A stretch of DNA of 15,476 nucleotides, taken from Bacteroidota bacterium (GTDB taxonomy: Bacteria; Bacteroidota; Bacteroidia; AKYH767-A; CANKSK01). Shown piece after piece: positions 2 to 14,905 of the stretch; position 1 is the stretch's first letter; the number at the start of each line of letters is the position of its first letter. The position numbers and the translations under genes are program-made. The stretch covers positions 1 through 15,476 of the forward strand of contig CANKSK010000004.1 of NCBI GenBank assembly GCA_947485425.1, given 5' to 3'. The notes beneath the pieces are model-generated. The model saw nothing but the letters and a program-made list of their open reading frames with translations, ran no database searches and had not been told where the DNA came from.

Positions 2-1057
2 GGACTTGCAGTTACCAATTATGAAAAAGCCTTGGAATTAGACAAAACACTTTTAAAGGCCCATCTGAGAATTGGGCAGCTCTATATTCGGGCACGCAAC
101 TACCCTGTTGCACAAAAATCCTTTGAAACTGCTATTGCCTTGGATGCGGGATATGCTCCGGCATATAGAGAACTTGGAGAAGTTTATTATTATCAAAAAC
201 AAACCGATAAGGCAACAGAATCTTATAAAAAATATCTCTCCTTGGCCGACCGCAATGTCAGCGCGTTAACCAGATATGCTTCTTTTCTATTTTTAACCAA
301 GGATTATCCTCAGGTGATATCGACTATCAATGAAGTAAATCAAATGGATTCAAGCAATGCAACCATGATGCGATTACTTGCCTATTCTTCCTTTGAACAA
401 GGAAAGTTTGATCAAGGATTAAAGTCTGCAGAAAGGTTTTTTCAAAAGATAAATCCGAATAAAATTATTTTCACAGACTATGAATATTACGGCAGATTAT
501 TAATTAAAAATGGCAAAGATTCTTTGGGCATCCTCACGCTAAAAAAAGCATTAAGCATGGACTCTACCAAAATCGATTTGCATTCGGACATTGCCTCAGC
601 ACTTCTTAAAACCAAAAAATATACAGAAGCCGCATCAGAGTATCAATACAAAATTAAAAACGCTAAAAATCCTACGGCTTTGGATTATTATTATTTGGGA
701 AATGCCTATTTTTTCAATAAACTTTTTGATAAAGCGGACAGTGCCTTTTTAAGGGTCATAGAAATCAAACCCAATCTTCCTATAGGCTATTTATGGAGGG
801 CAAGAGCCAATACTTCCATAGATCTAGAGGGAAAAGAAGGAAAAGCAAAACCCTATTATGAAAAATTTATTGAATTGGCAGAACCGGAATCCGAAAAAAA
901 TAAAAAAGACCTTTTAGAGGCCTATTATTATATGGGCGTTTATCTGATCAAAGCCGATCAAAATACCCTAGCCAAAACCTTTTTTGATAAAATATTAAAA
1001 CTCGACCCTGAAAATAAAGACGCAAAAGACATTCTTAAAAAACTTGGAATCAAATGA
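2..1057 (+). CDS. TPR-repeat protein, 5' end outside the window
   Basis: The C-terminal 351 or so residues of a tetratricopeptide-repeat protein. The reading frame is open from the first bases of the window (an upstream NYEKALELD-type TPR helix is readable), so the ATG/TTG codons near position 32 are not the true start. Repeating helical pairs with the A-x-x-x-Y/F...A-x-x-x-Y-x-K-A-L-x-L-D pattern run through the whole fragment, roughly nine or ten repeats, with the last ending LDPENKDAKDILKKLGIK. No enzymatic motif is visible; TPR arrays are protein-binding scaffolds. The N-terminus, and therefore any signal peptide or extra domain, cannot be seen. The TGA stop overlaps the nuoA ATG (ATGA), so the two genes are probably co-transcribed and translationally coupled. 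A role in complex I assembly is only a guess from position. Confident it is a TPR protein; function unknown. Confidence 0.9.
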   Translation, partial: GLAVTNYEKALELDKTLLKAHLRIGQLYIRARNYPVAQKSFETAIALDAGYAPAYRELGEVYYYQKQTDKATESYKKYLSLADRNVSALTRYASFLFLTKDYPQVISTINEVNQMDSSNATMMRLLAYSSFEQGKFDQGLKSAERFFQKINPNKIIFTDYEYYGRLLIKNGKDSLGILTLKKALSMDSTKIDLHSDIASALLKTKKYTEAASEYQYKIKNAKNPTALDYYYLGNAYFFNKLFDKADSAFLRVIEIKPNLPIGYLWRARANTSIDLEGKEGKAKPYYEKFIELAEPESEKNKKDLLEAYYYMGVYLIKADQNTLAKTFFDKILKLDPENKDAKDILKKLGIK

Positions 1058-1428
1058 TAGCATCCATCAGTACCCCTAGCGATTATTTACCCATATTATT
1101 GCAATTTGGCCTTGCATTGGCCTTTGTTATAGCCGTTATGCTAATAACGCATCTTGTAGGACCCAAAAGAAAGGGTAAAGACAAACTAGAACCCTTTGAA
1201 TGTGGAATTGAACCTACTGGCAATGCCCGACAGCCCTATTCGGTAAAATATTTTTTGGTAGCCATCCTCTTTGTGCTTTTTGACGTGGAGGTAATCTTTA
1301 TGTACCCTTGGGCTGTCAATTTCAAAAGCTTGGGAATGACGGGTTTTATTGAAATGATATTGTTTGTAGCATTTTTACTGTTGGGCTTCTATTATATCCT
1401 AAAAAAAGGTGCTTTAGAATGGGAATAA
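1054..1428 (+). CDS. nuoA: NADH-quinone oxidoreductase subunit A (complex I, ND3-like)
   Basis: Small membrane subunit of complex I, 124 residues, normal for NuoA. Three transmembrane helices are apparent at about residues 11-34, 65-86 and 97-116. The long loop between the first two carries the family signature EPFECGIEPTG (residues 46-56, Cys50), which lies near the quinone entry region in known complex I structures. Asp77 and Glu79 in the second helix (LFDVEV) are the usual conserved acids. The ATG overlaps the stop of the upstream TPR gene by 4 nt, pointing to translational coupling. First gene of the complete nuo operon. It is separated from nuoB by a 66-nt gap that holds a promoter-like sequence. 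Confidence 0.97.
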   Translation: MIASISTPSDYLPILLQFGLALAFVIAVMLITHLVGPKRKGKDKLEPFECGIEPTGNARQPYSVKYFLVAILFVLFDVEVIFMYPWAVNFKSLGMTGFIEMILFVAFLLLGFYYILKKGALEWE

Positions 1429-1462
1429 TTTGATTATAATTAGAAATAATAAATTACCTTTG
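1429..1462 (+). promoter_or_regulatory. Candidate Bacteroidota-type promoter upstream of nuoB
   Basis: The nuoA-nuoB gap contains TTTG (1429-1432), a 22-nt AT-rich spacer, then TACCTTTG (1455-1462). The second element matches the Bacteroidota -7 consensus TAnnTTTG and the first the -33 TTTG. The spacing is at the long end of what is reported for this phylum. Transcription would begin a few bases after 1462, giving a leader of roughly 25 nt to the ATG at 1495. This would allow nuoB onward to be transcribed separately from the TPR gene and nuoA. The same octamer also occurs inside nuoL by chance, so sequence alone is moderate evidence. Confidence 0.45.
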
Positions 1463-1494
1463 CCGACGATTTAGCATTGGTTAAAAGTAAAAAA

Positions 1495-2058
1495 ATGATG
1501 GAAACGGGAAATACAATATCAGGCTTGAAGTTGGAAACAGCTCCTGATGGTTTAGAGGGCCCCGGATTTTTTGCCACTCAATTTGACCGTGTAATCGGAA
1601 TGGCCCGAAAAAACTCAATTTGGCCTCTTCCCTTTGCCACTTCCTGCTGCGGAATTGAGTTTATGGCCACTATGGGCTCGCATTATGATATGGCTAGATT
1701 TGGTGCTGAAAGGGTTAGTTTTTCACCTCGTCAAGCTGATTTATTGATGGTAATGGGCACCATTGCAAAAAAAATGGGACCGGTACTCAAACAAGTATAT
1801 TTGCAAATGGCAGAACCTAGATGGGTAATTGCGGTTGGGGCTTGCGCTTCAAGCGGAGGAATTTTTGATACCTATAGTGTTTTACAAGGGATAGACAGAA
1901 TAATACCTGTAGATGTATATGTTCCAGGTTGCCCGCCTAGACCGGAACAAATTTTGGACGGTTTTATGAAGATTCAAGAGCTTGTACACAATGAATCTTT
2001 AAGAAGAAGAAATTCAGAAGAATATAAACAATTGCTTGCCACATACGATATTAAGTGA
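1495..2058 (+). CDS. nuoB: NADH-quinone oxidoreductase subunit B (N2 cluster)
   Basis: Holds cluster N2, the [4Fe-4S] centre that passes electrons to quinone. From the ATG at 1495 the product has 187 residues. The four N2 ligands are visible: tandem Cys51-Cys52 in SCCGIEFM, Cys117 in GACASSGG, and Cys146 in VPGCPPRPE. Family motifs [17 protein letters not shown] and [10 protein letters not shown] are intact. An in-frame TTG at 1477 would add six residues (VKSKK-rich). I prefer the ATG at 1495 (a second ATG follows at 1498) because the TTG would lie only about 15 nt after a likely promoter element and the added residues are not family-like. The stop lies 4 nt before the nuoC ATG. Confidence 0.97.
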
Positions 2059-2062
2059 TAAA

Positions 2063-2569
2063 ATGAATCGGCTGAACAATACTGAAATATTAGAAAAACT
2101 CAAATCAAAGTTCGGCACGGAAATTCTTTTTTCAGAAGAACCCTTTGGTTTGCTTACCATTTATATTGAGAAACAAATCATTAAAGATATGCTTCAATAT
2201 CTTTATCAAGAAACCCATTTGGGCTTTCAATTTTTAACTGATTTATGTGGAATACATGATCCAAGTCAGGTAAATGCAGAGCTTGGCGTGGTTTACCATT
2301 TGCAGAATATGCGCACCAATACGCGCATCAGAATAAAATCATTTACAGCCTTATCAAATCCTAAATTTCCAACCGTAACCGATATATTTAAAACGGCCAA
2401 TTGGATGGAGCGTGAAACGTACGACTTTTTCGGAATTATTTTCGAAGGTCATCCCAACTTAAAAAGAATATTAAATATGGATGACATGGTTGATTTTCCA
2501 TTGCGAAAAGAGTTTCCGTTGGAAGACCAAACCAGATTAGATAAGGATGATAAAATGTTCGGAAGGTAA
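2063..2569 (+). CDS. nuoC: NADH-quinone oxidoreductase subunit C (30 kDa-like)
   Basis: Peripheral-arm subunit that packs against NuoD and NuoB near the quinone site and has no cofactor. 168 residues from the ATG at 2063, four bases after the nuoB stop. The signature WMERETYDFFGIIFEGHPNL (about 114-133) is the conserved respiratory-chain 30-kDa motif. It is followed by RILNMDD and the C-terminal FPLRKEFPLED stretch typical of the family. A longer reading from a TTG at 2036 inside nuoB would add nine residues that do not resemble the family; I reject it. It is a stand-alone subunit rather than the NuoCD fusion found in E. coli. Position and motif make the identification secure. Confidence 0.96.
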   Translation: MNRLNNTEILEKLKSKFGTEILFSEEPFGLLTIYIEKQIIKDMLQYLYQETHLGFQFLTDLCGIHDPSQVNAELGVVYHLQNMRTNTRIRIKSFTALSNPKFPTVTDIFKTANWMERETYDFFGIIFEGHPNLKRILNMDDMVDFPLRKEFPLEDQTRLDKDDKMFGR

Positions 2570-2596
2570 AATTTAAAAGGGTACAAAGCATACACT

Positions 2597-3796
2597 ATGT
2601 CGCATATCAAACTTGATAAAGACTCGATAGAAAGAGAAACCACAACCCTAAATTTGGGACCTACACACCCTGCCACACATGGTGTTTTTCAGAATATTCT
2701 AGAATTAGATGGAGAAAGAATTGTAGGAGCGGATACAACCATTGGGTATATTCATCGTGCTTTTGAAAAAATTGCAGAACACCGGGCCTATTATCAGATT
2801 ACACCTTTAACCGATCGATTGAATTATTGCTCCTCCCCCATCAACAATATGGGATGGCATACCACAGTAGAAAAACTATTCGGGATTCAAACCTCAAAAA
2901 GAGTTGATTACCTGAGGGTAATCATCATGGAGCTAGCCCGAATTTCAGATCACTTGATTTGCAATAGCATTTTAGGAGTTGATACCGGAGCCTATTCCGG
3001 TTTTCTTTATCTGATGCAGGAAAGAGAAAATATCTATGAAATATATGAGGAAATTTGTGGTGCCAGACTCACCACCAATATGGGTAGGGTTGGCGGATTT
3101 GAAAGAGATATCAACCCGATAGCCATTCGTAAAATCAGAGAATTTTTAAAAAGATATCCGAAAACACTTTCTGAATTTGAGAAGCTTTTTAATAGAAATC
3201 GCATTTTCATGGATAGAACGATTGACGTTGGAAAAATATCAGCTGAAAGTGCCTTAAACTATGGTTTTACTGGACCTAATTTAAGAGCATGCGGCGTAGA
3301 TTATGATGTCCGGGTCATGGAGCCTTACTCTTCCTATCAAGATTTCGATTTCAGCATACCCGTAGGAAGCAATGGCGATGCTTACGACAGATTTATGGTT
3401 AGAAACAGAGAAATGTGGGAAAGCCTTAAAATCATTGGACAAGCCTTAGAAAATCTACCCGAAGGTTCTTATCAAGCAGATGTACCTGAATTTGTGCTGC
3501 CGCCCAAAGAAGAAGTTTATAATGATATGGAAGCCTTGATATACCACTTTAAAATAATCATGGGAGAAGTAGATGTTCCCAAAGGAGAGGTTTATCATTC
3601 AGTAGAAGGTGCAAATGGAGAATTGGGTTTCTATTTGGTGAGTGATGGTGGCAGAACACCATTCAGATTGCATTTCCGCAGACCTTGTTTTATCTATTAT
3701 CAAGCATATCCCGAAATCATCAAGGGTAGCTTAATATCAGATGCCATTGTCACCCTAAGCGGCTTAAATGTGATTGCAGGAGAGTTAGATGCATAA
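2597..3796 (+). CDS. nuoD: NADH-quinone oxidoreductase subunit D (49 kDa-like, quinone site)
   Basis: Forms the quinone-binding pocket with NuoB. 399 residues, the usual length of stand-alone NuoD. The N-terminal GPTHPATHGVF (residues 21-31) contains the histidines of the quinone-site hairpin, and TDRLNY (72-77) contains the conserved tyrosine that contacts the quinone head group. Further conserved stretches are LGVDTGAYSGFLY, MGRVGGFERD and GANGELGFYLVSDGG, and the end is SGLNVIAGELDA. Like other complex I NuoD proteins it lacks the NiFe-site cysteines of the related hydrogenases. The ATG lies 27 nt after nuoC. No oddity seen. Confidence 0.97.
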   Translation: MSHIKLDKDSIERETTTLNLGPTHPATHGVFQNILELDGERIVGADTTIGYIHRAFEKIAEHRAYYQITPLTDRLNYCSSPINNMGWHTTVEKLFGIQTSKRVDYLRVIIMELARISDHLICNSILGVDTGAYSGFLYLMQERENIYEIYEEICGARLTTNMGRVGGFERDINPIAIRKIREFLKRYPKTLSEFEKLFNRNRIFMDRTIDVGKISAESALNYGFTGPNLRACGVDYDVRVMEPYSSYQDFDFSIPVGSNGDAYDRFMVRNREMWESLKIIGQALENLPEGSYQADVPEFVLPPKEEVYNDMEALIYHFKIIMGEVDVPKGEVYHSVEGANGELGFYLVSDGGRTPFRLHFRRPCFIYYQAYPEIIKGSLISDAIVTLSGLNVIAGELDA

Positions 3797-3808
3797 GACA
3801 GAAAAGAC

Positions 3809-4309
3809 ATGAAAGAATCATCAAACCTATCATTTTCAGAACAAAGTTTACAAAAGGTCAAGGAAATTCTGAGTAGATATCCCCAAGGAAAAGAAAAATC
3901 TGCCTTGTTGCCCTTGTTACATATGGCTGAAGCGGAATTTGGCGGATGGCTTAGTCCAGAAGTAATGGATTATGTTGCCACCATTTTAAACATTCAACCG
4001 ATTGAAGTGTATGAGGTGGCTACCTTTTATTCCATGTTCAATTTAAAACCTACCGGTAAATATGTCCTAGAAGTATGCAGAACAGGCCCCTGCTGCTTGC
4101 GTGGTGCCGAAAACCTTCTTGACAAGATCGAGGAAAAATTAGGCATCAAAGTAGGCGAAACCAGCGCTGATGGATTATTCACGTTGAAGACCGTTGAATG
4201 TCTTGCATCTTGCGGTACAGCTCCGATGATGCAAGTTGGTGACAAATATTATGAAAATCTGAATGAAGAAAATATAGAAACGGTTCTTCAATCCTTCAGA
4301 AACAATTAA
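3809..4309 (+). CDS. nuoE: NADH-quinone oxidoreductase subunit E (24 kDa-like, N1a cluster)
   Basis: Thioredoxin-like [2Fe-2S] subunit of the NADH-oxidising module, 166 residues. The N-terminal helical region contains SALLPLLHMAEAEFGGWLSPE, and the family motif EVATFYSMF is at about 69-77. The N1a ligands are Cys90 and Cys95 (CRTGPC) with Cys131 and Cys135 (CLASC), matching the family spacing. Cys96 follows Cys95 directly and is an extra cysteine in CRTGPCC. It lies 12 nt after nuoD and 7 nt before nuoF, as expected for the E-F-G input module. Confidence 0.97.
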   Translation: MKESSNLSFSEQSLQKVKEILSRYPQGKEKSALLPLLHMAEAEFGGWLSPEVMDYVATILNIQPIEVYEVATFYSMFNLKPTGKYVLEVCRTGPCCLRGAENLLDKIEEKLGIKVGETSADGLFTLKTVECLASCGTAPMMQVGDKYYENLNEENIETVLQSFRNN

Positions 4310-4316
4310 ATTCAGG

Positions 4317-5660
4317 ATGGGCAAAAAACTATTATTTAAGCACATTGATGTTCCGGGAATCAAAGATTTTACGGTTTATAGGAGCAAAAACGGTTATGAG
4401 GCAGTAGAAAAAGCCCTCAAAACGATGAGTCCTGATGAAGTGCAAGAGGAAGTAAAAAAATCCGGCCTCAGAGGAAGAGGTGGAGCGGGATTTCCTGCCG
4501 GGATGAAATGGAGTTTCTTGGATAGAAAATCAGATAAGCCTAGATATTTGGTATGCAATGCAGATGAAAGTGAACCCGGAACCTTCAAAGACCGCTACCT
4601 CATCGAACATATTCCGCATCTTTTGGTTGAAGGCATGATTTTATCAAGCTATGCCTTGGGAGCAAACACTTCATACATTTATGTGAGAGGTGAAATGAAA
4701 ACCCCTATTAAAATTCTCGAAAATGCAATATCTGAAGCCTATGCAAATGGCTTTTTAGGGAAAAACATTTTAGGAACTTCATATTCATTAGACTTATACG
4801 TGCAACCTGGAGGTGGTGCCTACATATGTGGTGAAGAAACCGCTTTATTGGAATCATTAGAAGGCAAAAGAGGAAATCCAAGGATGAAGCCTCCATTCCC
4901 CGCCATTTCAGGTCTATATGGATCACCTACGGTTGTCAACAATGTTGAAACCATTTCAGCTGTAGTTCCAATTATCAATGATGGTGGAGATGCCTATGCA
5001 CAAATAGGCATTGGAAAAAGTACAGGTACCAAACTCATTTCAGCATGTGGCAACATCAATAAACCTGGGGTTTATGAAATTGAATTGGGTCTACCGGTAG
5101 AAGAATTTATTTTCTCTGATGAATATTGTGGTGGCATATGGAAAAACAAGCGATTAAAAGCTGTTGTTCCCGGTGGCTCTTCGGTTCCTATTCTTCCTGC
5201 AGAATTGATATTAAAAACCTTACAAGGTGAACCTCGCCTCATGAGCTACGAATCACTTTCTGATGGAGGATTTGCAAGTGGAAGCATGCTGGGTTCCGGT
5301 GGTTTTATCGTTTTTGATGAAGATGCATGTATCGTAAGAAATACATGGAACTTTTCAAGATTTTATCACCATGAATCTTGTGGACAATGCAGCCCTTGCA
5401 GAGAAGGCACAGGTTGGATGGAAAAAGTATTGCATCGGATTGAAAATGGTCACGGCAATGAAAGGGATATTGATTTATTGGTGGAAGTGGCAAAAAAAAT
5501 AGAAGGAAATACGATTTGCCCGTTAGGTGATGCAGCAGCATGGCCTGTGGCAAGTGCTATCAGGCATTTCAGAGAAGAATTTGAATGGCATATAAGAGAG
5601 CCAAAAGAAAGCATGAAAAGAAATTATGGCATCCGCGAAAAATCAATTCTAGGAGCTTAA
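4317..5660 (+). CDS. nuoF: NADH-quinone oxidoreductase subunit F (NADH/FMN-binding, N3 cluster)
   Basis: Oxidises NADH through FMN and passes electrons to cluster N3. 447 residues, normal length. GLRGRGGAGFPAGMKW (50-65) is the NADH/FMN glycine-rich loop, followed by CNADESEPGTFKDR (80-93) and the FMN-site segment PGGGAYICGEETALLES (164-180). The N3 [4Fe-4S] ligands are Cys355, Cys358 and Cys361 (SCGQCSPCREGTGW) plus Cys401 (TICPLGDA). The soluble SLBB-like middle region contains the NKPGVYE motif. The ATG is 7 nt after nuoE; an AGG sits only one base upstream and is too close to act as a Shine-Dalgarno site. No truncation or odd residue seen. Confidence 0.98.
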   Translation: MGKKLLFKHIDVPGIKDFTVYRSKNGYEAVEKALKTMSPDEVQEEVKKSGLRGRGGAGFPAGMKWSFLDRKSDKPRYLVCNADESEPGTFKDRYLIEHIPHLLVEGMILSSYALGANTSYIYVRGEMKTPIKILENAISEAYANGFLGKNILGTSYSLDLYVQPGGGAYICGEETALLESLEGKRGNPRMKPPFPAISGLYGSPTVVNNVETISAVVPIINDGGDAYAQIGIGKSTGTKLISACGNINKPGVYEIELGLPVEEFIFSDEYCGGIWKNKRLKAVVPGGSSVPILPAELILKTLQGEPRLMSYESLSDGGFASGSMLGSGGFIVFDEDACIVRNTWNFSRFYHHESCGQCSPCREGTGWMEKVLHRIENGHGNERDIDLLVEVAKKIEGNTICPLGDAAAWPVASAIRHFREEFEWHIREPKESMKRNYGIREKSILGA

Positions 5661-5666
5661 AAAACA

Positions 5667-5687
5667 AATTCCAACCTACAAGGAATT
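5667..5687 (+). promoter_or_regulatory. Small inverted repeat before nuoG
   Basis: AATTCC (5667-5672) and GGAATT (5682-5687) could form a 6-bp stem with a 9-nt loop ending 6 nt before the nuoG ATG. It is short and AT-rich, so chance is a likely explanation. No T-tract follows, so it is not a terminator. Confidence 0.15.
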
Positions 5688-5693
5688 CACAAA

Positions 5694-6677
5694 ATGGTTA
5701 AAGTAACAATAGATGGCATTGAAGTTGAAGTTGAAGAAAACACAACGATATTAAATGCAGCTCGCAGAATTGGTGGTGACGTAGTTCCACCAGCCATGTG
5801 TTATTATTCAAAATTAAAAGGCAGTGGAGGCAAATGCAGAACCTGTTTGGTAAAGGTTTCTCAGGGATCAGCGAAAGATCCCCGTCCAATGCCCAAACTG
5901 GTTGCATCCTGCTCTACCATGGTTCAAGATGGTATGGTAATACTCAATTCTACCTCTCCTGAAGTGGTAGATGCCAGAAAATCAGTTGTGGAATTTCTTT
6001 TGATAAATCATCCTTTGGATTGCCCGGTTTGTGACCAGGCAGGAGAATGTGATTTGCAAAATCTAACCTATGCGCATGGCCTTTCAAAAAGCAGATACGA
6101 AGAGGAAAGGCGAACCTTTGAAAAGATTGATATCGGCGAACATATACAGTTGCATATGACCCGTTGTATCCTCTGTTACCGATGTGTGTATACAGCAGAT
6201 CAAATAACCGATAAAAGAGTTCATGGTGTGCTCAATCGGGGCGATGCCTCTGAAATTGGCACTTATATAAAAAATGTTATCGAGAATGATTTTTCTGGTA
6301 ATGTGATAGATGTATGCCCTGTAGGCGCATTAACAGATAAAACCTTCCGATTCAAGCAAAGGGTATGGTTTAGCAAGCCCATGGATGCCCATAGAAATTG
6401 TTCAAAATGCTCAGGAAAAGTAGCATTATGGATGAAAGGGAATGATATCTTAAGGGTAACGGGAAGAAAAAATAGCTTTGGTGAAGTAGAAGAATTTATT
6501 TGCAACGAATGTAGATTTGAGAAGAAAAAAACTGAAGATTGGACTATAGAAGGTCCAAGACACATTAGCAATCATTCTGTGATTTCTCAAAATCACTATG
6601 AGAATACCTTTAAAGCAAAGCTTGCTTCCCGTCAACCTAAAGAAATTTATGGCAATAAAGATTCTGCGGAAAAATAA
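5694..6677 (+). CDS. nuoG: Short NADH-quinone oxidoreductase subunit G (75 kDa-like, lacking the molybdopterin-type domain)
   Basis: Carries the iron-sulfur relay of the NADH module. At 327 residues it is far shorter than the roughly 700-900 residues of E. coli or mitochondrial homologues. The N-terminal ferredoxin-like [2Fe-2S] site has Cys36, Cys48, Cys51 and Cys73. Cluster N5 has the histidine-containing pattern His106-Cys110-Cys113-Cys119. Cluster N4 has Cys158, Cys161, Cys164 and Cys208. After these the protein has Cys236-x2-Cys239 and Cys270-x2-Cys273, then a charged tail; the molybdopterin-oxidoreductase-like C-terminal domain is absent. The coding end is clean and I see no remnant of a longer gene downstream, so this appears to be the native form. 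Short NuoG is, as far as I recall, usual in Bacteroidota. The four extra cysteines suggest a further metal site (inference). Confidence 0.95.
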   Translation: MVKVTIDGIEVEVEENTTILNAARRIGGDVVPPAMCYYSKLKGSGGKCRTCLVKVSQGSAKDPRPMPKLVASCSTMVQDGMVILNSTSPEVVDARKSVVEFLLINHPLDCPVCDQAGECDLQNLTYAHGLSKSRYEEERRTFEKIDIGEHIQLHMTRCILCYRCVYTADQITDKRVHGVLNRGDASEIGTYIKNVIENDFSGNVIDVCPVGALTDKTFRFKQRVWFSKPMDAHRNCSKCSGKVALWMKGNDILRVTGRKNSFGEVEEFICNECRFEKKKTEDWTIEGPRHISNHSVISQNHYENTFKAKLASRQPKEIYGNKDSAEK

Positions 6678-6683
6678 ACATAA

Positions 6684-6721
6684 GTGTGTCAATATTACAC
6701 TATGGTGTAATATTGACACAC
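6684..6721 (+). repeat. Perfect 17-bp inverted repeat between nuoG and nuoH
   Basis: Left arm GTGTGTCAATATTACAC (6684-6700), loop TATG (6701-6704), and right arm the exact reverse complement (6705-6721). The element fills most of the 60-nt gap and ends 16 nt before the nuoH ATG. In RNA it would be a strong hairpin. No T-run follows, so it is not a standard intrinsic terminator on the + strand. Possible roles are mRNA stabilisation or processing, translational control of nuoH, or a dimeric protein-binding site; the sequence does not decide between them. The right arm plus flank, GACACACATAAA, recurs before nuoM. Confidence 0.85.
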
Positions 6722-6737
6722 ATAAAGGCAAAATGAT

Positions 6738-7769
6738 ATGATTTTAGATATAGCATTCATAATTTACAAACTAATTCTCATTGCAATTATATTTGGAATT
6801 TCACTTTTTATTGCCATGTATGCAACCCTCGCAGAAAGAAAAATAGCAGGTTTTATGCAGGACAGACATGGCCCTAATCGTGCTGGACCTTTTGGAATGC
6901 TACAACCCCTTGCCGATGGTGTTAAGTTATTTTTTAAAGAAGAAATAATTCCCGGTGATGCCAATAAGAAATTATTTATCCTAGGTCCATGCATTGCCAT
7001 GATAACCGCATGCATGACCAGTGCCGTAATTCCATGGGGAACAACCTTGGAAATTGGCAATAAATCCCTACCCTTAGTTGTAACCGATTTAAACATCGGC
7101 ATTCTTTATGTTTTTGGAGTGGTATCTTTGGGTGTGTATGGCATCATGTTCGGAGGCTGGGCCTCAAACAATAAATTTTCTTTATTGGGAGCCATTCGCG
7201 CATCCTCACAAATGATCAGTTATGAAATTGCCATGGGCTTCGCCATCATTTCTCTTCTATTGGTTACCGGAAGCTTAAGCTTAAAAGAAATTGTTGAAGG
7301 CCAGGCTAACTCGCATTGGAATATTGTTTACCAACCGTTGGGATTTCTAATCTTTATCATTTGTGTATTTGCTGAAACCAACCGCACTCCTTTTGATTTG
7401 CCGGAATGTGAAACATAATTGTTAGGCGGATATCATACCGAATATAGCAGCATGAAACTAGGATTTTATTTGTTTTCAGAATACATCAATATGTTTGTGG
7501 CCTCTGCGGTGATGGCTACCTTGTATTTTGGAGGCTATCATCTGCCCTTTATATCAGGTTTAAACTTACCACATAATCTGATAGCCATGATCGGGGTAGC
7601 AGCATTATTTATCAAAATATTCCTGTTCATGTTTTTCTTTATGTGGGTTAGATGGACGATACCTAGGTTCCGCTATGATCAATTGATGAATCTGGGATGG
7701 AAAATATTAATACCATTGTCGATTTTAAATTTATTAATTACCGGCTTAGTTATTTTATTGGTGAAGTAA
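6738..7769 (+). pseudogene. nuoH: NADH-quinone oxidoreductase subunit H interrupted by an in-frame TAA
   Basis: Membrane subunit that builds the quinone chamber and links it to the proton-pumping arm. Residues 1-226 and 228-343 are both clearly NuoH and lie in one frame, separated by a single TAA at codon 227. Full length with the stop read as an amino acid would be 343 residues, normal for the family. Conserved parts include AERKIAGFMQDRHGPNRAGP (32-51), LQPLADGVKLFFKE (55-68), ASSQMISYEIAMG (156-168), AETNRTPFDLPECET (212-226), then GGYHTEYSSMK after the stop. The rest of the gene shows no decay. It may be a sequencing error, a strain-specific nonsense mutation, or a read-through codon. If translated as two pieces, the second could begin at the TTG at 7419 or the ATG at 7452. 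Marked pseudogene only because the frame is interrupted as written. Confidence 0.9.
7416..7418 (+). other. nuoH: Internal ochre codon (TAA) in nuoH
   Basis: The codons read GAA TGT GAA ACA TAA TTG TTA GGC, that is E-C-E-T-stop-L-L-G. Homologues have a conserved glutamate here (pattern E-x-E-L-V-x-G-x-x-T-E-Y), so one change GAA to TAA explains the stop. There is no frame change and no homopolymer nearby. TAA is the genuine stop of most other genes in the window, so general reassignment of TAA is not supported. Confidence 0.93.
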
Positions 7770-7797
7770 AAAGGACAATAAGCAAAGAACATATCAA

Positions 7798-8337
7798 ATG
7801 GAACCACTAACATCAAGAGCCCAAGTTGTAGAAAAGAAGAAAATGAATCTCTGGGAGAGGATGTATCTGCCTGCCATTGTTGGTGGTATGGCAATTACGC
7901 TCAAACATTTATTTAAAAAGAAAGTCACCGTAAAGTATCCCGAACAAAAAAGAGAATTTAGCAAAGTTTGGAGAGGTCAACATGTATTGAAGCGTGATGA
8001 TAATGGTGCGGAAAGATGCACGGCATGTGGTTTATGCGCCCTCGCCTGCCCTGCCGAGGCCATCACAATGGATGCTGCAGAACGTAAACCTTCAGAAAAA
8101 AATTTATATCGGGAAGAAAAGTATGCGGCAAGATATGAAATTGATATGCTCAGATGCATTTTTTGCGGACTATGTGAAGATGCCTGCCCTAAAGAAGCCA
8201 TTTTTCTAAGAGATGATAAAATTGTGATGTCAGAATTTGGAAGAAAACCATTTGTTTATGGAAAAGATATTTTGGTTGAACCCATGGATCCAACAAAAAG
8301 AATTGATATTTCAGCAAGACAGAAAAAAACATTTTAG
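7798..8337 (+). CDS. nuoI: NADH-quinone oxidoreductase subunit I (8Fe ferredoxin-type, N6a/N6b)
   Basis: Electron-transfer subunit between NuoG and NuoB, 179 residues. Two [4Fe-4S] motifs are complete: Cys74, Cys77, Cys80 and Cys84 (CTACGLCALACP), and Cys120, Cys123, Cys126 and Cys130 (CIFCGLCEDACP). In ferredoxin fashion each cluster takes three cysteines from one motif and the fourth from the other. The N-terminal part (about 20-45, including MYLPAIVGGMAITLKHLFKK) forms the amphipathic helices that anchor NuoI to the membrane arm. The gene ends in TAG, one of two in this operon. Intergenic distance after nuoH is 28 nt and to nuoJ 9 nt. Confidence 0.97.
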   Translation: MEPLTSRAQVVEKKKMNLWERMYLPAIVGGMAITLKHLFKKKVTVKYPEQKREFSKVWRGQHVLKRDDNGAERCTACGLCALACPAEAITMDAAERKPSEKNLYREEKYAARYEIDMLRCIFCGLCEDACPKEAIFLRDDKIVMSEFGRKPFVYGKDILVEPMDPTKRIDISARQKKTF

Positions 8338-8346
8338 CACAATCCT

Positions 8347-8853
8347 ATGGTATCTATATTTTATTTTCTAAGTTTTCTAGCCGTCATCAGTGCCTTTATG
8401 GTGGTTATTGCCAAAAACCCCATACACAGCGTACTTTATCTTATCATGACCTTTTTTGCTATTGCTGGTCACTATGTTTTGATGAATGCACAATTTTTAG
8501 CAGTCGTAAATATTATTGTTTATGCAGGCGCCATCATGGTTTTGTTCTTATTTGTCATCATGCTATTGAATCTAAATACAGATGCAGAGCAAAATAAATC
8601 CATACTCATTAGACTTACTGGAATCGTTGCAGGAGGCATACTGATGATTACACTCATTGGTGCCTTTAAGCAAGTAAGTATTGTAAAAGATACCACATTC
8701 TATGCCTCCGGACAAGCCTATGATATCGGTTTGGTTAAAAATTTAGGTAATACTTTGTTTAAAGAATTCCTGGTACCCTTTGAATTGTCATCCATCTTAT
8801 TCCTTGCAGCAATGGTAGGTGCGGTAATGTTGGGAAAAAAAGATATAAAATAA
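8347..8853 (+). CDS. nuoJ: NADH-quinone oxidoreductase subunit J (ND6-like)
   Basis: Hydrophobic membrane-arm subunit, 168 residues, with five predicted transmembrane helices (first at about 3-21, last at about 145-163). The conserved third helix YAGAIMVLFLFVIMLLNL (59-76) contains the tyrosine and glycine of the flexible region that changes shape during complex I turnover in known structures. The N-terminal AKNPIHSVLYLI segment is also typical. The ATG is 9 nt after nuoI. The match to the family is clear although overall sequence conservation in NuoJ is low. Confidence 0.95.
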   Translation: MVSIFYFLSFLAVISAFMVVIAKNPIHSVLYLIMTFFAIAGHYVLMNAQFLAVVNIIVYAGAIMVLFLFVIMLLNLNTDAEQNKSILIRLTGIVAGGILMITLIGAFKQVSIVKDTTFYASGQAYDIGLVKNLGNTLFKEFLVPFELSSILFLAAMVGAVMLGKKDIK

Positions 8854-8865
8854 AGATCTACAAAT

Positions 8866-9198
8866 ATGGAAAACGGAATTTCAACCATAACGCAAATCAT
8901 ACCACCGAACTTTTATCTGATTTTAAGTTCGCTATTGTTTTGCATTGGCATTATTGGGGTATTAATACGAAGAAACATCATTGTAGTATTTATGTCCATA
9001 GAGCTGATGTTGAATGCTTCCAATTTATTGATGGTTGCCTTTTCGTCCTATCGCTCCGATGGAGCTGCACAGGTCTTTGTATTCTTTTCCATGGTGGTTG
9101 CTGCTGCAGAAGTGGCCGTGGGACTGGCTATTATTGTCATGATTTATCGCAATATACATTCCATTGATATTAAAGAATTAAGTAAATTAAAATGGTAG
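8866..9198 (+). CDS. nuoK: NADH-quinone oxidoreductase subunit K (ND4L-like)
   Basis: Three-helix proton-path subunit of the membrane arm, 110 residues, about ten longer at the N-terminus than E. coli NuoK. The two membrane glutamates needed for proton transfer are present: Glu46 in SIELMLNASNLLMV and Glu82 in AAAEVAVGLAIIV, corresponding to E. coli Glu36 and Glu72. Helices lie at about 16-34, 40-60 and 71-93. It ends in TAG and is followed by a 42-nt gap before nuoL in which I see no signal. Confidence 0.97.
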   Translation: MENGISTITQIIPPNFYLILSSLLFCIGIIGVLIRRNIIVVFMSIELMLNASNLLMVAFSSYRSDGAAQVFVFFSMVVAAAEVAVGLAIIVMIYRNIHSIDIKELSKLKW

Positions 9199-9240
9199 AA
9201 CACCTCTCTCGTTACACCATTTAAAATCAGAATTTCAGAT

Positions 9241-11148
9241 ATGAATCAACTCATTATTTTCATACTTTTACTTCCCTTCCTTGGCTTTATCATCAATGGA
9301 TTAGGAGCCAAAAAAATTTCTCGAAACCTTGCCGGTATCATAGGCAGTGGAACCGTGTTGGCATCATTTATTCTTTCAGTTGTTGCCTTCAATGGAATCC
9401 TGCAAGGAAGTCTACCCTCATCACCCGTTTCTTTGTTTACTTGGATTGAGGCAGGTAATCTCCGCATTCCATTTTCTTTTCTTGTGGATAGACTTTCTGT
9501 ATTGATGATGATGATTATAACAGGAGTCGGATTTCTAATCCATGTATATTCAATAGGATATATGAAGGAAGATGAGGGATTTGGTAAGTATTTCAGCTAT
9601 TTAAATTTATTTACCTTCTCCATGTTGCTATTGGTAATGGGTAGCAATTTTGTGGTGATGTTTATTGGTTGGGAAGGCGTAGGTCTTTGCTCCTATTTGC
9701 TGATAGGTTTTTGGTTTAAAAACAACGCCTACAACAATGCTGCTAGCAAGGCTTTCATTATGAACCGCATTGGCGACCTTGGATTCCTTCTTGGCATATT
9801 TCTCATCTACCATACCTTTGGTACTTTGGAGTATTCTGCAGTCTTTGAAAAAGCAAAAATGTTACCTTCAGGGGATTCAACGCTACTTTGGATAACCCTA
9901 TTTCTCTTTATTGGAGCTACCGGAAAGAGTGCACAAATCCCATTATATACATGGCTACCGGATGCAATGGCAGGGCCTACACCCGTTTCCGCTTTAATAC
10001 ATGCAGCAACCATGGTAACGGCAGGTATATACATGATTGTGAGGTCTAATATCATGTTTACATTGGCTCCATTTACGATGGGTATCATATCTATAGTTGG
10101 ACTTTTAACCGCTTTGACAGCAGCCTTGATAGCCATTTCACAAACCGATATTAAAAAAGTTTTGGCCTACTCAACGGTGAGTCAGTTGGGATATATGTTT
10201 TTAGCTTTGGGTGTTGGCGGTTATTCTGCTGCTATGTTTCATTTGATGACCCATGCTTTCTTTAAAGCCTTGCTCTTTCTAGGAGCAGGAAGCGTGATAC
10301 ATGCCATGAGCGGCGAACAGGACATACGCAACATGGGTGGATTAAAAAAATATACGCCCATTACCTTTATCACTTTCTTTACTGCTTGCCTTGCCATTTC
10401 CGGTATTCCGCCATTTTCAGGATTTTTCTCCAAAGATGAAATTCTAGCACATGTATATGCAAGCAATCCTATTTTATGGATTTTCGCCGTTATTGGCGCT
10501 ATGATGACAGCTTTCTACATGTTCAGATTGTTGTATTTGGTATTCTACAGAGACTTTAAAGGCAGCGATAAACAATTGTCCCATCTGCATGAATCACCCT
10601 ATGTGATGACTATTCCGCTAATCGTTTTGGCTATACTATCCTTTGCGGGTGGATTTATAAACATTCCGGAATCTTTAGGCGGAACAGCGGCATTCAAGCA
10701 TTATCTAGATCCGATATTGGAAGCATCTAACCAAATGCATTCATCCATTAATGAATTAAGCCATCAAGCGGAATATGTGCTGATGGCTATATCCATTTGC
10801 GTGGTTGTCCTTTCTATCTTGTTCGCCAGACAAAAATATTATGTAAGAGGCGAAGAGCCTGCCATGGAAAAAGAAAACCTGCCTATGATGGTGAGACTTA
10901 CCAGAAATAAATTTTATATCGATGAAATTTATGAAGCATTGGTTGTTAAACCTATTCATCTGTTCGGAGATTTCCTGTTGAGGGTTATAGAAAAACTAGG
11001 TATAGACCGTTTGGTGAATGGCATTGGAAATTCCGTGATTTTTAGTAGTAAAAATGCAAGACTTCTTCAAACAGGAAATACCGGATTCTATTTATTTGCT
11101 ATGGTTTTCGGAATCATTATCATTCTCTTATTTAATCTCATTCGATGA
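9241..11148 (+). CDS. nuoL: NADH-quinone oxidoreductase subunit L (ND5-like antiporter subunit)
   Basis: Distal proton-pumping subunit of the membrane arm, 635 residues, in the usual range. The antiporter-type core has Glu145 in FIGWEGVGLCSYLLIGFW and Lys229 in GATGKSAQIPLYTWLPDAMAGPTPVSALIHAATMV, the key charged pair of the pump. A further lysine-bearing helix (THAFFKALLFLGAGSVIH) and FFSKDEIL follow. The C-terminal NKFYIDEIYEALVVKP and final hydrophobic helix (about 615-635) belong to the NuoL-specific long lateral helix and its anchor. It ends in TGA and is followed by 40 nt containing a small hairpin before nuoM. No frameshift or missing motif. Confidence 0.98.
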   Translation: MNQLIIFILLLPFLGFIINGLGAKKISRNLAGIIGSGTVLASFILSVVAFNGILQGSLPSSPVSLFTWIEAGNLRIPFSFLVDRLSVLMMMIITGVGFLIHVYSIGYMKEDEGFGKYFSYLNLFTFSMLLLVMGSNFVVMFIGWEGVGLCSYLLIGFWFKNNAYNNAASKAFIMNRIGDLGFLLGIFLIYHTFGTLEYSAVFEKAKMLPSGDSTLLWITLFLFIGATGKSAQIPLYTWLPDAMAGPTPVSALIHAATMVTAGIYMIVRSNIMFTLAPFTMGIISIVGLLTALTAALIAISQTDIKKVLAYSTVSQLGYMFLALGVGGYSAAMFHLMTHAFFKALLFLGAGSVIHAMSGEQDIRNMGGLKKYTPITFITFFTACLAISGIPPFSGFFSKDEILAHVYASNPILWIFAVIGAMMTAFYMFRLLYLVFYRDFKGSDKQLSHLHESPYVMTIPLIVLAILSFAGGFINIPESLGGTAAFKHYLDPILEASNQMHSSINELSHQAEYVLMAISICVVVLSILFARQKYYVRGEEPAMEKENLPMMVRLTRNKFYIDEIYEALVVKPIHLFGDFLLRVIEKLGIDRLVNGIGNSVIFSSKNARLLQTGNTGFYLFAMVFGIIIILLFNLIR

Positions 11149-11153
11149 AAATG

Positions 11154-11177
11154 GTGTGTTAAAAAGACACACATAAA
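11154..11177 (+). promoter_or_regulatory. Hairpin before nuoM sharing a 12-mer with the nuoG-nuoH repeat
   Basis: GTGTGT (11154-11159), loop TAAAAAG, and ACACAC (11167-11172) form a 6-bp stem in the 40-nt nuoL-nuoM gap. The stretch GACACACATAAA (11166-11177) is identical to 6715-6726 before nuoH. In both places the stem ends exactly 16 nt before the ATG. No T-tract follows. The shared sequence and position suggest a common regulatory or mRNA-processing role, but two short copies could also be coincidence. Confidence 0.5.
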
Positions 11178-11188
11178 CATATATTAAA

Positions 11189-12634
11189 ATGATTACAATA
11201 TTTATTTTATTTTTCCCATTGCTCGCTTCCCTCCTGTTTTTATTTTCAGGTAATGAAAATGCAAAAAAAATTGCTTTAGGAATATCAGTCATAGAGCTGG
11301 CAGTAAGTATTTTTGCAGCCATTCAATTTATTCCGGATTCAAATGTTCAATTTGCTTTGCATGTGGATTGGATTCGCACTTTGGGCATTTCCTTTCATGT
11401 GGGTATGGATGGTATCAGTTTATTGATGGTGCTTTTAACCTCTTTTCTTGTTCCCATTATCATCTTATCTTCCTTCAGCAAAGAATATGCAAATGCAAAA
11501 TCATTTTACTTTTTGATTCTTTTAATGGAATGCGGATTGCAAGGTGTATTTCTATCACAGAACACATTTTTGTTTTACATTTTTTGGGAGGTGGCTCTCA
11601 TTCCTATTTACTTCATCGCAGCCCTTTGGGGAGGCGATAAACGTATTCAGGTGACACTTAAATTTTTTATCTATACCATTCTTGGCAGTTTATTTATGCT
11701 GATCGCGTTTATCTATTTATACCTTCAATCGCCCACGCAAACGATGGATTTTCAATCCCTCTATCAAATTGCGCTAAGCAGAAGTACGCAAGGAATTCTA
11801 TTTTGGGCTTTTTTCTTGGCTTTTGCCATCAAGATGCCCATATTTCCTTTTCATACTTGGCAACCAGACACCTATGCAGAAGCTCCCACACCGGGTAGTA
11901 TGCTTTTATCCGGCATTATGCTAAAAATGGGTGTTTATGGTGTTATCAGATTTATTCTGCCCATGTTGCCTCTTGGCATGGAAGATTGGGGAAATACAGC
12001 TATTGTTTTATCCGTGATTGGTATTGTATATGGTTCGCTCATTGCAATGGTGCAAAAAGATTTGAAAAGACTCATTGCCTATTCTTCTATTGCGCATGTG
12101 GGATTGATTTCTGCAGGCATCTTCACTTTGAATGCGCAAGGATTAACAGGAGGAATTATTCAAATGTTAAGCCATGGTCTTTGTGTAGTGGGATTATTTT
12201 TTGTAGTGGACCTGATCAAAAAGAGAACAGGAACCCGCATCATAACAGAGCTTGGAGGTATTGCGGAAAAATCACCTGCGCTTGCCATCTATTTTATGAT
12301 AATCATGCTTGGAAGCATTGCCTTGCCCCTAACAAGCGGTTTTATTGGTGAGTATCTGATGCTGACAGGCCTTTATGAGTATAATCCATATCTCGCAGGC
12401 ATTGCGGGATTGGGAATTATTTTCGGCGCCGTTTACATGTTGAACATGTATAAAAGAACGATGTATGGCCTATCTCCTCTTCAAAGCAGCGAATTTAAAT
12501 CCTTGAGTATGGCTGAAAATACGGCATTGTTTGCATTAAGCGCAAGCATTCTTTGGATTGGTATTTATCCTGAAACATTTTTACACCTCGCAAGACCAGC
12601 AGCAAATCATTTGCTTGAGATTGCAAAACATTAA
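11189..12634 (+). CDS. nuoM: NADH-quinone oxidoreductase subunit M (ND4-like antiporter subunit)
   Basis: Middle proton-pumping subunit of the membrane arm, 481 residues, slightly shorter than E. coli NuoM. Key charged residues appear in their usual settings: Glu134 in FYIFWEVALIPIYF, Lys215 in AFAIKMPIFPFHTWQPDTYAEAP, and Lys246 in SGIMLKMGVYGVIRF. The segment KDLKRLIAYSSIAHVGLI and the late SGFIGEYLML match the family; the latter contains the conserved glutamate of the last antiporter helices. About 14 transmembrane helices are expected for the family and the hydrophobicity fits. Start ATG at 11189, 16 nt after the hairpin described separately. No anomaly. Confidence 0.97.
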   Translation: MITIFILFFPLLASLLFLFSGNENAKKIALGISVIELAVSIFAAIQFIPDSNVQFALHVDWIRTLGISFHVGMDGISLLMVLLTSFLVPIIILSSFSKEYANAKSFYFLILLMECGLQGVFLSQNTFLFYIFWEVALIPIYFIAALWGGDKRIQVTLKFFIYTILGSLFMLIAFIYLYLQSPTQTMDFQSLYQIALSRSTQGILFWAFFLAFAIKMPIFPFHTWQPDTYAEAPTPGSMLLSGIMLKMGVYGVIRFILPMLPLGMEDWGNTAIVLSVIGIVYGSLIAMVQKDLKRLIAYSSIAHVGLISAGIFTLNAQGLTGGIIQMLSHGLCVVGLFFVVDLIKKRTGTRIITELGGIAEKSPALAIYFMIIMLGSIALPLTSGFIGEYLMLTGLYEYNPYLAGIAGLGIIFGAVYMLNMYKRTMYGLSPLQSSEFKSLSMAENTALFALSASILWIGIYPETFLHLARPAANHLLEIAKH

Positions 12635-12685
12635 AATAATTCCCTTATTCCATCAATACGCAAAAGAATTAAAGACTTATAGCTC

Positions 12686-14077
12686 ATGACAACGATTGTA
12701 TTGCTTTCATTATTAGGGCTGATTACATTAATCACCGGACTGTTTACCATCAAAAGATATATTCTGCCCATTGTCGTTTCAGGGCTATTGGTTGTATTTG
12801 CGATACACACATCATCCATATCCATCATCAATGAAAATGGACCGATGTTTAACAACATGATGAAGTTTGATCAGTTTTCTATTTTATTTTCAGGCCTGAT
12901 CCTATTATTGACTGTATTGATTGTTTTTCAGACCCAAAAGTTTGAGGGGGAAACTGACATCCCTTTGCCTGAATTGCTCACCTTATTTTTATTTGCCATT
13001 ACAGGGGCCTTGATTATGGTTTCCTATACCCATTTGGTGATGCTCTTTTTAGGCATTGAAACCCTTTCCATTTGCTTATATGTGCTTGCAGGAAGCAGGC
13101 GCAGCGAGTTAAGCTCCAACGAAGCGGCGATGAAATATTTTCTGATGGGTGCCTTTGCCTCAGGCTTTCTTTTATTTGGCATCACCCTCATTTATGGTGC
13201 CACCGGAAGTTTTCATTTGGCAATGATTTCAGCACAAATACAAAATCCGGCCATTGCCAATTCGCCCATGCTCATTGCAGGCATACTAATGGTACTTATC
13301 GCCTTAGCCTTTAAAGTAGGTGCCGTTCCCTTTCATTTTTGGACACCGGATGTATATGAAGGTTCCCCTACCCTTGTTACCTCATTTATGGCCACGGTAG
13401 TAAAAACAGCAGGATTTGCCGCATTTTTCAGACTCTTCTTTTTGGCCTTTTCACACACCCCTCCGATGTGGAATCAAACGCTTTGGGTGATCTGCGCACT
13501 AACGATGACCCTTGGAAATATAACAGCCATTTATCAAAATCAAGTAAAAAGAATGATGGCTTATTCTGGTATTGCCCATACAGGTTATATGCTGATGGCT
13601 ATTCTAGCTTTAAATCAGGTTGCGGTATCGGGTATTCTATTTTATGCCACCGCCTATGCTTTGGCTACCATTGCACTTTTTGCCGTCTTTATTACATTAC
13701 AAAAAAATTACAAACTCGATTCCATAGAATCCTTTAATGGCTTTGCTAAGAAAAACCCTTTCGCTGCATTTGTAGTTGCGGCCTCCCTGTGTTCCCTTGC
13801 CGGTATTCCACCTTTGGCAGGCTTTTTCGGAAAGTTCTATATTTTTTCTCTCGCACTAAAACAACAAAATTTTTGGTTGGTTATCATTGCCATCATCAAC
13901 TCCTGTATTTCAGTGTATTATTATTTCAGAATCATCGTTGCCATGTATATGAAAAAAGCCATGGATGAGCAAACCATAGAAATCGACCGAATGAGTTATT
14001 TGGTATTGATTATTTGTATGCTTGCAAGTTTGGTATTGGGTTTATTTCCAGATCTGATTTTAAGCTTAAATGCCTAA
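12686..14077 (+). CDS. nuoN: NADH-quinone oxidoreductase subunit N (ND2-like antiporter subunit)
   Basis: Third antiporter-like subunit, nearest the quinone module, 463 residues. Glu125 in VMLFLGIETLSICLYVLAG, Lys210 in ALAFKVGAVPFHFWTPDVYEG, and Lys240 in MATVVKTAGFAAFFRL are the expected proton-path residues. The segments NQVKRMMAYSGIAHTGYML and SLAGIPPLAGFFGKFYIF are family hallmarks. It is the last gene of the operon, ends in TAA, and converges on the lipoprotein gene across a 99-nt gap. The gap from nuoM is 51 nt with no recognisable signal. Confidence 0.97.
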   Translation: MTTIVLLSLLGLITLITGLFTIKRYILPIVVSGLLVVFAIHTSSISIINENGPMFNNMMKFDQFSILFSGLILLLTVLIVFQTQKFEGETDIPLPELLTLFLFAITGALIMVSYTHLVMLFLGIETLSICLYVLAGSRRSELSSNEAAMKYFLMGAFASGFLLFGITLIYGATGSFHLAMISAQIQNPAIANSPMLIAGILMVLIALAFKVGAVPFHFWTPDVYEGSPTLVTSFMATVVKTAGFAAFFRLFFLAFSHTPPMWNQTLWVICALTMTLGNITAIYQNQVKRMMAYSGIAHTGYMLMAILALNQVAVSGILFYATAYALATIALFAVFITLQKNYKLDSIESFNGFAKKNPFAAFVVAASLCSLAGIPPLAGFFGKFYIFSLALKQQNFWLVIIAIINSCISVYYYFRIIVAMYMKKAMDEQTIEIDRMSYLVLIICMLASLVLGLFPDLILSLNA

Positions 14078-14176: not shown

Positions 14177-14905
14177 TCAATTTGTGGATTGAATGGCTTT
14201 CATTCTAAATTCAAAGCCTCCGGTCAAATTTCCGGTGTTCAAGTCTTTTTCATAGTGAATCATTTCGTAATGAATGAGACCCATATGTTTGGCATACTTT
14301 TCTTCTTTCCAATTGGTTTCAAGGCCATTAACCTCATCTTGTTGAATTACGGTAAGACTTGAATCGGTAGAAATATTTTTATACGCATAAGGAATATGGA
14401 TATCCGTATAGGTAAATTCGCTTTCACCAAGAATATTATAGCTATTGCCATTCCAATGTTTTTGAGATTTTATTGGAAATGCAAGGTTCACATAGGTATA
14501 ATTGTCTTCTTTCCAATGCAAGGCATCCTCGAGTAAATTTGCAGTACATATTTTCCATGGTTCCCAAGCGGCTGTATCATTCAGTCTTTTCGAACGCTCA
14601 AAAACATAGGTTAGTCGATTTGAATTGTCATAAAAAGTAGTCTTGATAACATCCTGCACCTGAAATTTGACTTTACGGATATGCACAGAATCATTGGCAT
14701 CCAAAGAATACCTTACCGAATCTGCTTCATACAGAATGGTATGGCCTAAATTCAATGGAAAATAGGCATAACCCATGTCTAAAGGCGCGATTATACTATC
14801 CTTTTTGCATGCAGCAAAAAAACAGAGCATAAACACCCCCAATAACATATATAAATATCTCTTTATCAATATCTTAAGCAAAAAGTAATTTTTGATTTTT
14901 CCCAT
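14177..14905 (-). CDS. Putative lipoprotein of unknown function
   Basis: 242 residues. The N-terminus is basic (MGKIKNYFLLKILIKR), followed by a hydrophobic core and a lipobox ending FFAAC with the cleavage cysteine at residue 33. The mature protein would start CKKDS, a common look for Bacteroidota lipoproteins. A later ATG at residue 20 would also leave a short signal peptide. The mature part is rich in aromatic and polar residues in alternating patterns (for example YTYVNLAFP, FTYTDIHIPYAY), suggesting a beta-rich fold; no known domain or catalytic motif is recognised. It lies 93 nt downstream of mnmA on the same strand and could share its transcript; I see no good promoter match in that gap. 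Likely membrane-anchored in the periplasm or outer membrane; function unknown. Confidence 0.85.
   Translation of the reverse strand: MGKIKNYFLLKILIKRYLYMLLGVFMLCFFAACKKDSIIAPLDMGYAYFPLNLGHTILYEADSVRYSLDANDSVHIRKVKFQVQDVIKTTFYDNSNRLTYVFERSKRLNDTAAWEPWKICTANLLEDALHWKEDNYTYVNLAFPIKSQKHWNGNSYNILGESEFTYTDIHIPYAYKNISTDSSLTVIQQDEVNGLETNWKEEKYAKHMGLIHYEMIHYEKDLNTGNLTGGFEFRMKAIQSTN

Follow-up and report, generated by a model that had tools for sequence, protein, structure and literature searches.

The 15,476-base window analyzed here, which is one entire contig, carries a nuoH gene interrupted by a single in-frame TAA at the position of a conserved glutamate. The internal stop is confirmed in the deposited sequence. 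We consider it most likely an isolated base or assembly error (probability of roughly 0.7) in an organism with an intact nuoH, and the wrong base itself is something we infer. The contig is the fourth-longest of the 299 in a 1,604,514-base draft genome (longest contig 18,683 bases; 58% complete), a degree of fragmentation that suggests thin read coverage. The draft itself probably derives from a metagenome. Its nearest named relatives found were Bacteroidota, largely metagenomic, with 63–75% identity to the first part of NuoH (best 80 of 571 confirmed).

An internal TAA in a conserved nuoH

The contig encodes a TPR-like protein (assigned by eye), nuoA to nuoN, all in one orientation, a gene that by eye resembles those of lipoproteins, and the terminal part of mnmA. 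Searches for tRNAs and Rfam families within the window found none. The features relevant to the internal stop are as follows.

1054..6677, + strand: nuoA–nuoG, each open, with family matches and lengths compared with relatives
6738-7769, + strand: nuoH as a whole, with the in-frame TAA inside and its natural stop TAA at 7767
6738..7415, + strand: nuoH before the internal stop, 226 codons, matching NuoH families (profile positions 19-230 of the best model)
7416..7418, + strand: in-frame TAA at NuoH residue 227, Glu in 110/110 relative loci, aligned to Glu 227 of 4he8_H
7419..7769, + strand: nuoH behind the internal stop, 116 codons plus the natural TAA, matching NuoH families (positions 233-341 of the same best model), conserved as in relatives
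7798..14077, + strand: nuoI–nuoN, each open, with family matches and lengths compared with relatives

The TAA lies in the frame of the ATG at 6738, and the frame is open on both sides of it. A six-frame search with PF00146 returned a single match that reads through the stop (406.1 bits, above the family cut-off, with one TAA inside), and the two parts match NuoH models at adjoining profile positions. With X placed at the stop, the protein scored 342.9 bits against NCBIfam PRK06076.1-2 and passed its cut-off of 305; it did not reach those of the six further models listed. The whole-family profile and the place in the operon between nuoG and nuoI thus identify the gene as a member of the NuoH/ND1 family of complex I, from which it differs by one in-frame TAA at a conserved Glu, so that it lacks the single uninterrupted frame expected of NuoH. 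A reading made from the sequence alone had described just such a single stop, replacing a conserved glutamate in nuoH, and both parts of that description are borne out.

Glutamate occupied the stop column in all 110 relative loci, some of which may represent the same genome from two collections (91 with one Glu codon, 19 with the other), and in 108/108 sequences of the full-length alignment. The uniformity of this column argues against either a chance frame or a misread one. Among sequences with known structures (33 matched), Glu stood at the stop position in 5/5 alignments listed, including residue 227 of 4he8_H, which we take to be Thermus Nqo8. The stop falls close to the quinone site, in the NuoH TM5-6 loop; part of PMC13324432 treats this loop together with E220 of E. 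coli NuoH and the E220/H226 pair. By inferred numbering, window residue 227 should correspond to E220, since six residues on there is a His, matching the spacing of that pair. The TTG directly behind the stop encodes the Leu of a motif that many relatives have as ELVGG or ELIGG. A second motif type (ENELNFGYHQ-like) was also present among the relative loci.

Several other elements of the contig were recorded. A perfect inverted repeat between nuoG and nuoH (6684-6721; 17-base arms, 4-base loop; RNA fold -25.3 kcal/mol, z -7.5) was the second longest of 14 perfect hairpins (arms of at least 13, loop 3-12) in 60 sampled contigs, and its 15-base core was found nowhere else in them. On the + strand it lacks a T-run, and on the - strand a terminator-like pattern was detected; the repeat could serve as an operator or processing site. 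A sigma-70-like match (11/12, 6713-6742) overlaps the right arm of the hairpin and the start of nuoH; nine such matches occurred in 6500-8000 vs 5.9 expected. Bacteroidota use another promoter type, so this match may be chance. The lipoprotein-like protein at 14177-14905 on the - strand (242 aa) had no NCBIfam match at E 0.001.

Constraint on nuoH and state of the operon

Sequence conservation did not differ across the stop in the way expected of a decaying gene. Mean identity to the 108 full-length relatives was 67.5% behind the stop and 70.7% before it, a C/N ratio of 0.955 that lies close to that of the relatives themselves (0.962, sd 0.033; 49/108 at or below the window). Near-invariant columns were kept at 43/44 positions behind the stop and 75/76 before it. 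Neither further lesions nor relaxed constraint were found in the second part, whose frame is open to the natural end, and old gene decay was rejected because the C-terminal part does not evolve faster. The gene around the stop is therefore under normal constraint, and a mutation, if real, must be recent.

The remainder of the operon is in similar condition. All 13 other subunits (nuoA-G, nuoI-N) are open and match their own families, some below the curated cut-off (e.g. nuoA, nuoG, nuoJ), and the lengths of 12/13 fall in the range of relatives; the exception is nuoN, with 463 aa vs a minimum of 467 aa in 22 relatives. NuoG (327 aa) matches just the first half of its model and was considered as a second truncated subunit, a candidate rejected because NuoG spans 304-392 aa in 106 relative loci. 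The earlier view that the other thirteen subunits look intact therefore holds.

These observations bear on the reading that the stop is genuine, either a nonsense mutation of very recent date or a strain variant that entered the consensus, such that NuoH ends after 226 residues and the complex I of this operon is lost in the strain. We regard this as unlikely, and as the alternative that most deserves weight. With 13 other subunits open and the part behind the stop fully conserved, the loss would have to be too recent to have left a trace. If the mutation were real, NADH would be oxidized by another route, perhaps through another complex I encoded in the ~42% of the genome that the draft lacks. 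Such a spare appears common nearby, given that 26/41 relatives of the order had at least two matches to PF00146 (fragments and distant homologues are among these); the draft, at 58% completeness, yielded one copy. Together with the second motif type, the multiple NuoH-family matches may point to two types of complex I in many such bacteria. Against loss of the complex, two COX1-family genes in the draft suggest that respiration is in use, and the Nqr/Rnf family PF03116 had no match found in the draft. An NDH-2 is possible on the basis of nine Pyr_redox_2 matches, one of which (L149) was run against NCBIfam and gave a soxA-like match, with two further frames (L148, L151) viewed only. A literature search for a nuoH nonsense case did not show the word nuoH in any of the 15 papers listed out of 2,172, which is no proof that none is in print.

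Isolation of the stop and the genetic code

Comparison with the nuoH of relatives, which the sequence-only reading had proposed as a check, revealed no relative match with a stop in 60 genomes, none of them from the window's own family. Across the 61 genomes including its own, 54 (own included) had a NuoH match, and the stop was present only in the window's own; the 42 genomes of the order, a subset of the 61, included 39 with a match, likewise counting its own. The scan also took in the draft's 60 largest contigs, 579,909 bases in all, which were aligned with open frames covering 1.2 Mb of the relative G021 and with those of the 110 loci that surround NuoH in relatives. Only the best frame at each place was retained, because antisense reference frames had swamped the unfiltered pass, and 182,827 bases were aligned (32% of the sample, 11% of the draft). 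Stops fell inside alignments at 17 places, and only the nuoH TAA had strong identity on both sides (27/30 residues identical before and 26/30 after, against the best reference; 111 alignments). At the other 16, at least one side was too short or of low identity, and the stops appear to mark the end of a gene or to precede the start of one. The 182,827 aligned bases thus yielded no further internal stop flanked on both sides by good homology. Scans for internal stops by coding score were discarded as too weak, as they ranked the known nuoH stop 45th of 885 in one case and outside the 70 listed of 142 positives in another. Two frameshift candidates on contig C4, each from one reference, were set aside: one spans the nuoD/nuoE border and the other is an antisense match over nuoA/nuoB.

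TAA is in ordinary use as a terminator in this genome. It ends 10 of the 14 nuo genes at their natural stops (2 TAG, 2 TGA), and among 440 long open frames, chosen greedily as candidate genes, the ending is TAA in 295, TAG in 64, and TGA in 50, and another 31 run off the contig. RF2 is present (prfB match of 496.6 bits), and prfB (L183, contig C48) carries an AGGAGG...CTTTGAC arrangement (CTTTGAC at 3729), presumably the site of the programmed frameshift in RF2. The 58% complete draft yielded no RF1, and none of its 13 detected tRNAs has a UUA anticodon. Genome-wide recoding is very unlikely: internal TAA does not recur in frame across conserved genes in the aligned bases (one of 17 stop places interrupts good homology on both sides), TAA ends most nuo genes, RF2 is present, and no UAA-reading tRNA occurs among the 13 found. 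A genome-wide change of code was accordingly rejected, and the earlier argument that TAA, as the real stop of most neighboring genes, speaks against a changed code holds over the scanned part. In the work described in part of PMC8629427, reassignments were detected from in-frame stops in critical genes, and the bacterial reassignments treated there concern UGA. The window shares an in-frame stop in a critical gene with those cases and differs in having one stop only, a TAA, which otherwise serves normally as a terminator.

The same evidence weighs on local decoding of the stop, in which a suppressor tRNA or a context signal would allow full-length NuoH to be made. In its favor, both flanks of the stop are conserved in the way of a translated frame. 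We nevertheless hold this to be extremely improbable, given the lack of a second conserved gene with an internal stop in the aligned bases, the use of TAA to end nuo genes, and the lack of a UUA anticodon among the tRNAs found in the incomplete genome. The base after the stop is T, a strong, efficient termination context.

NuoH might instead be produced in two chains, with translation of the second beginning either at the TTG that follows the stop directly or at the ATG at 7453. The TTG is suitably placed, and the sequence behind the stop forms a coherent NuoH segment; the TTG, however, encodes the Leu of the conserved ELVGG/ELIGG motif, and no AGGAGG-like motif was seen by eye in the 25 bases at 7394-7418, a kind of motif that is said to matter little in Bacteroidota. 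No NuoH match was split within one contig in the 61 genomes; the pieces in two of them (G025 and G006) lie on different contigs, and a match lacked its first part in two others (G028 and G011). We attach just as little credence to this arrangement. Both options had been raised from the sequence alone, and neither has positive support. A stop that is real and fixed in the lineage, with UAA decoded at this one place or NuoH made from two chains cut in the quinone-side loop, is very doubtful; if true, complex I would work without one intact NuoH gene.

Probable origin of the stop

An erroneous base call or assembly had been ranked first from the sequence alone, and the fragmentary draft, the isolated lesion, the lack of downstream decay, and the lack of any relative with the stop all favor that ranking; error rather than mutation is the probable cause. 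A wrong base would have entered the assembly consensus of the fragmentary draft. Of random substitutions within nuo genes, some 4.7% create a stop. Were this stop such a substitution, its single occurrence across the 182,827 aligned bases would correspond to ~1.1e-4 errors per base (2.9e-6 to 6.4e-4). Spurious pseudogenes arising from assembly error are treated in part of PMC11017572, using simulated reads of one E. coli isolate genome. The likeness to the window lies in a single internal stop, an otherwise conserved gene, and a fragmentary draft; the difference is that the window is known from assembled sequence alone.

Two observations run against error. The contig is among the longest of the draft, and so perhaps among its better parts, and the rest of the aligned sample is clean, so that an assembly rich in errors is not demonstrated. 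That same cleanness is in keeping with a recent mutation. One event in a 1.6 Mb draft fits an error and also fits one recent nonsense mutation, and the count therefore does not separate them. Error is preferred on a prior judgement, namely that drafts of this kind acquire consensus errors more often than a 14-gene operon that is intact and highly constrained acquires a single nonsense mutation in its middle. We accordingly view the lone nuoH stop as ordinary, and most likely an error.

At face value, the sequence would imply that complex I has been lost or that a stop has been recoded. Neither gene loss nor recoding should be concluded, without the reads, from a single internal stop in such a fragmentary assembly.
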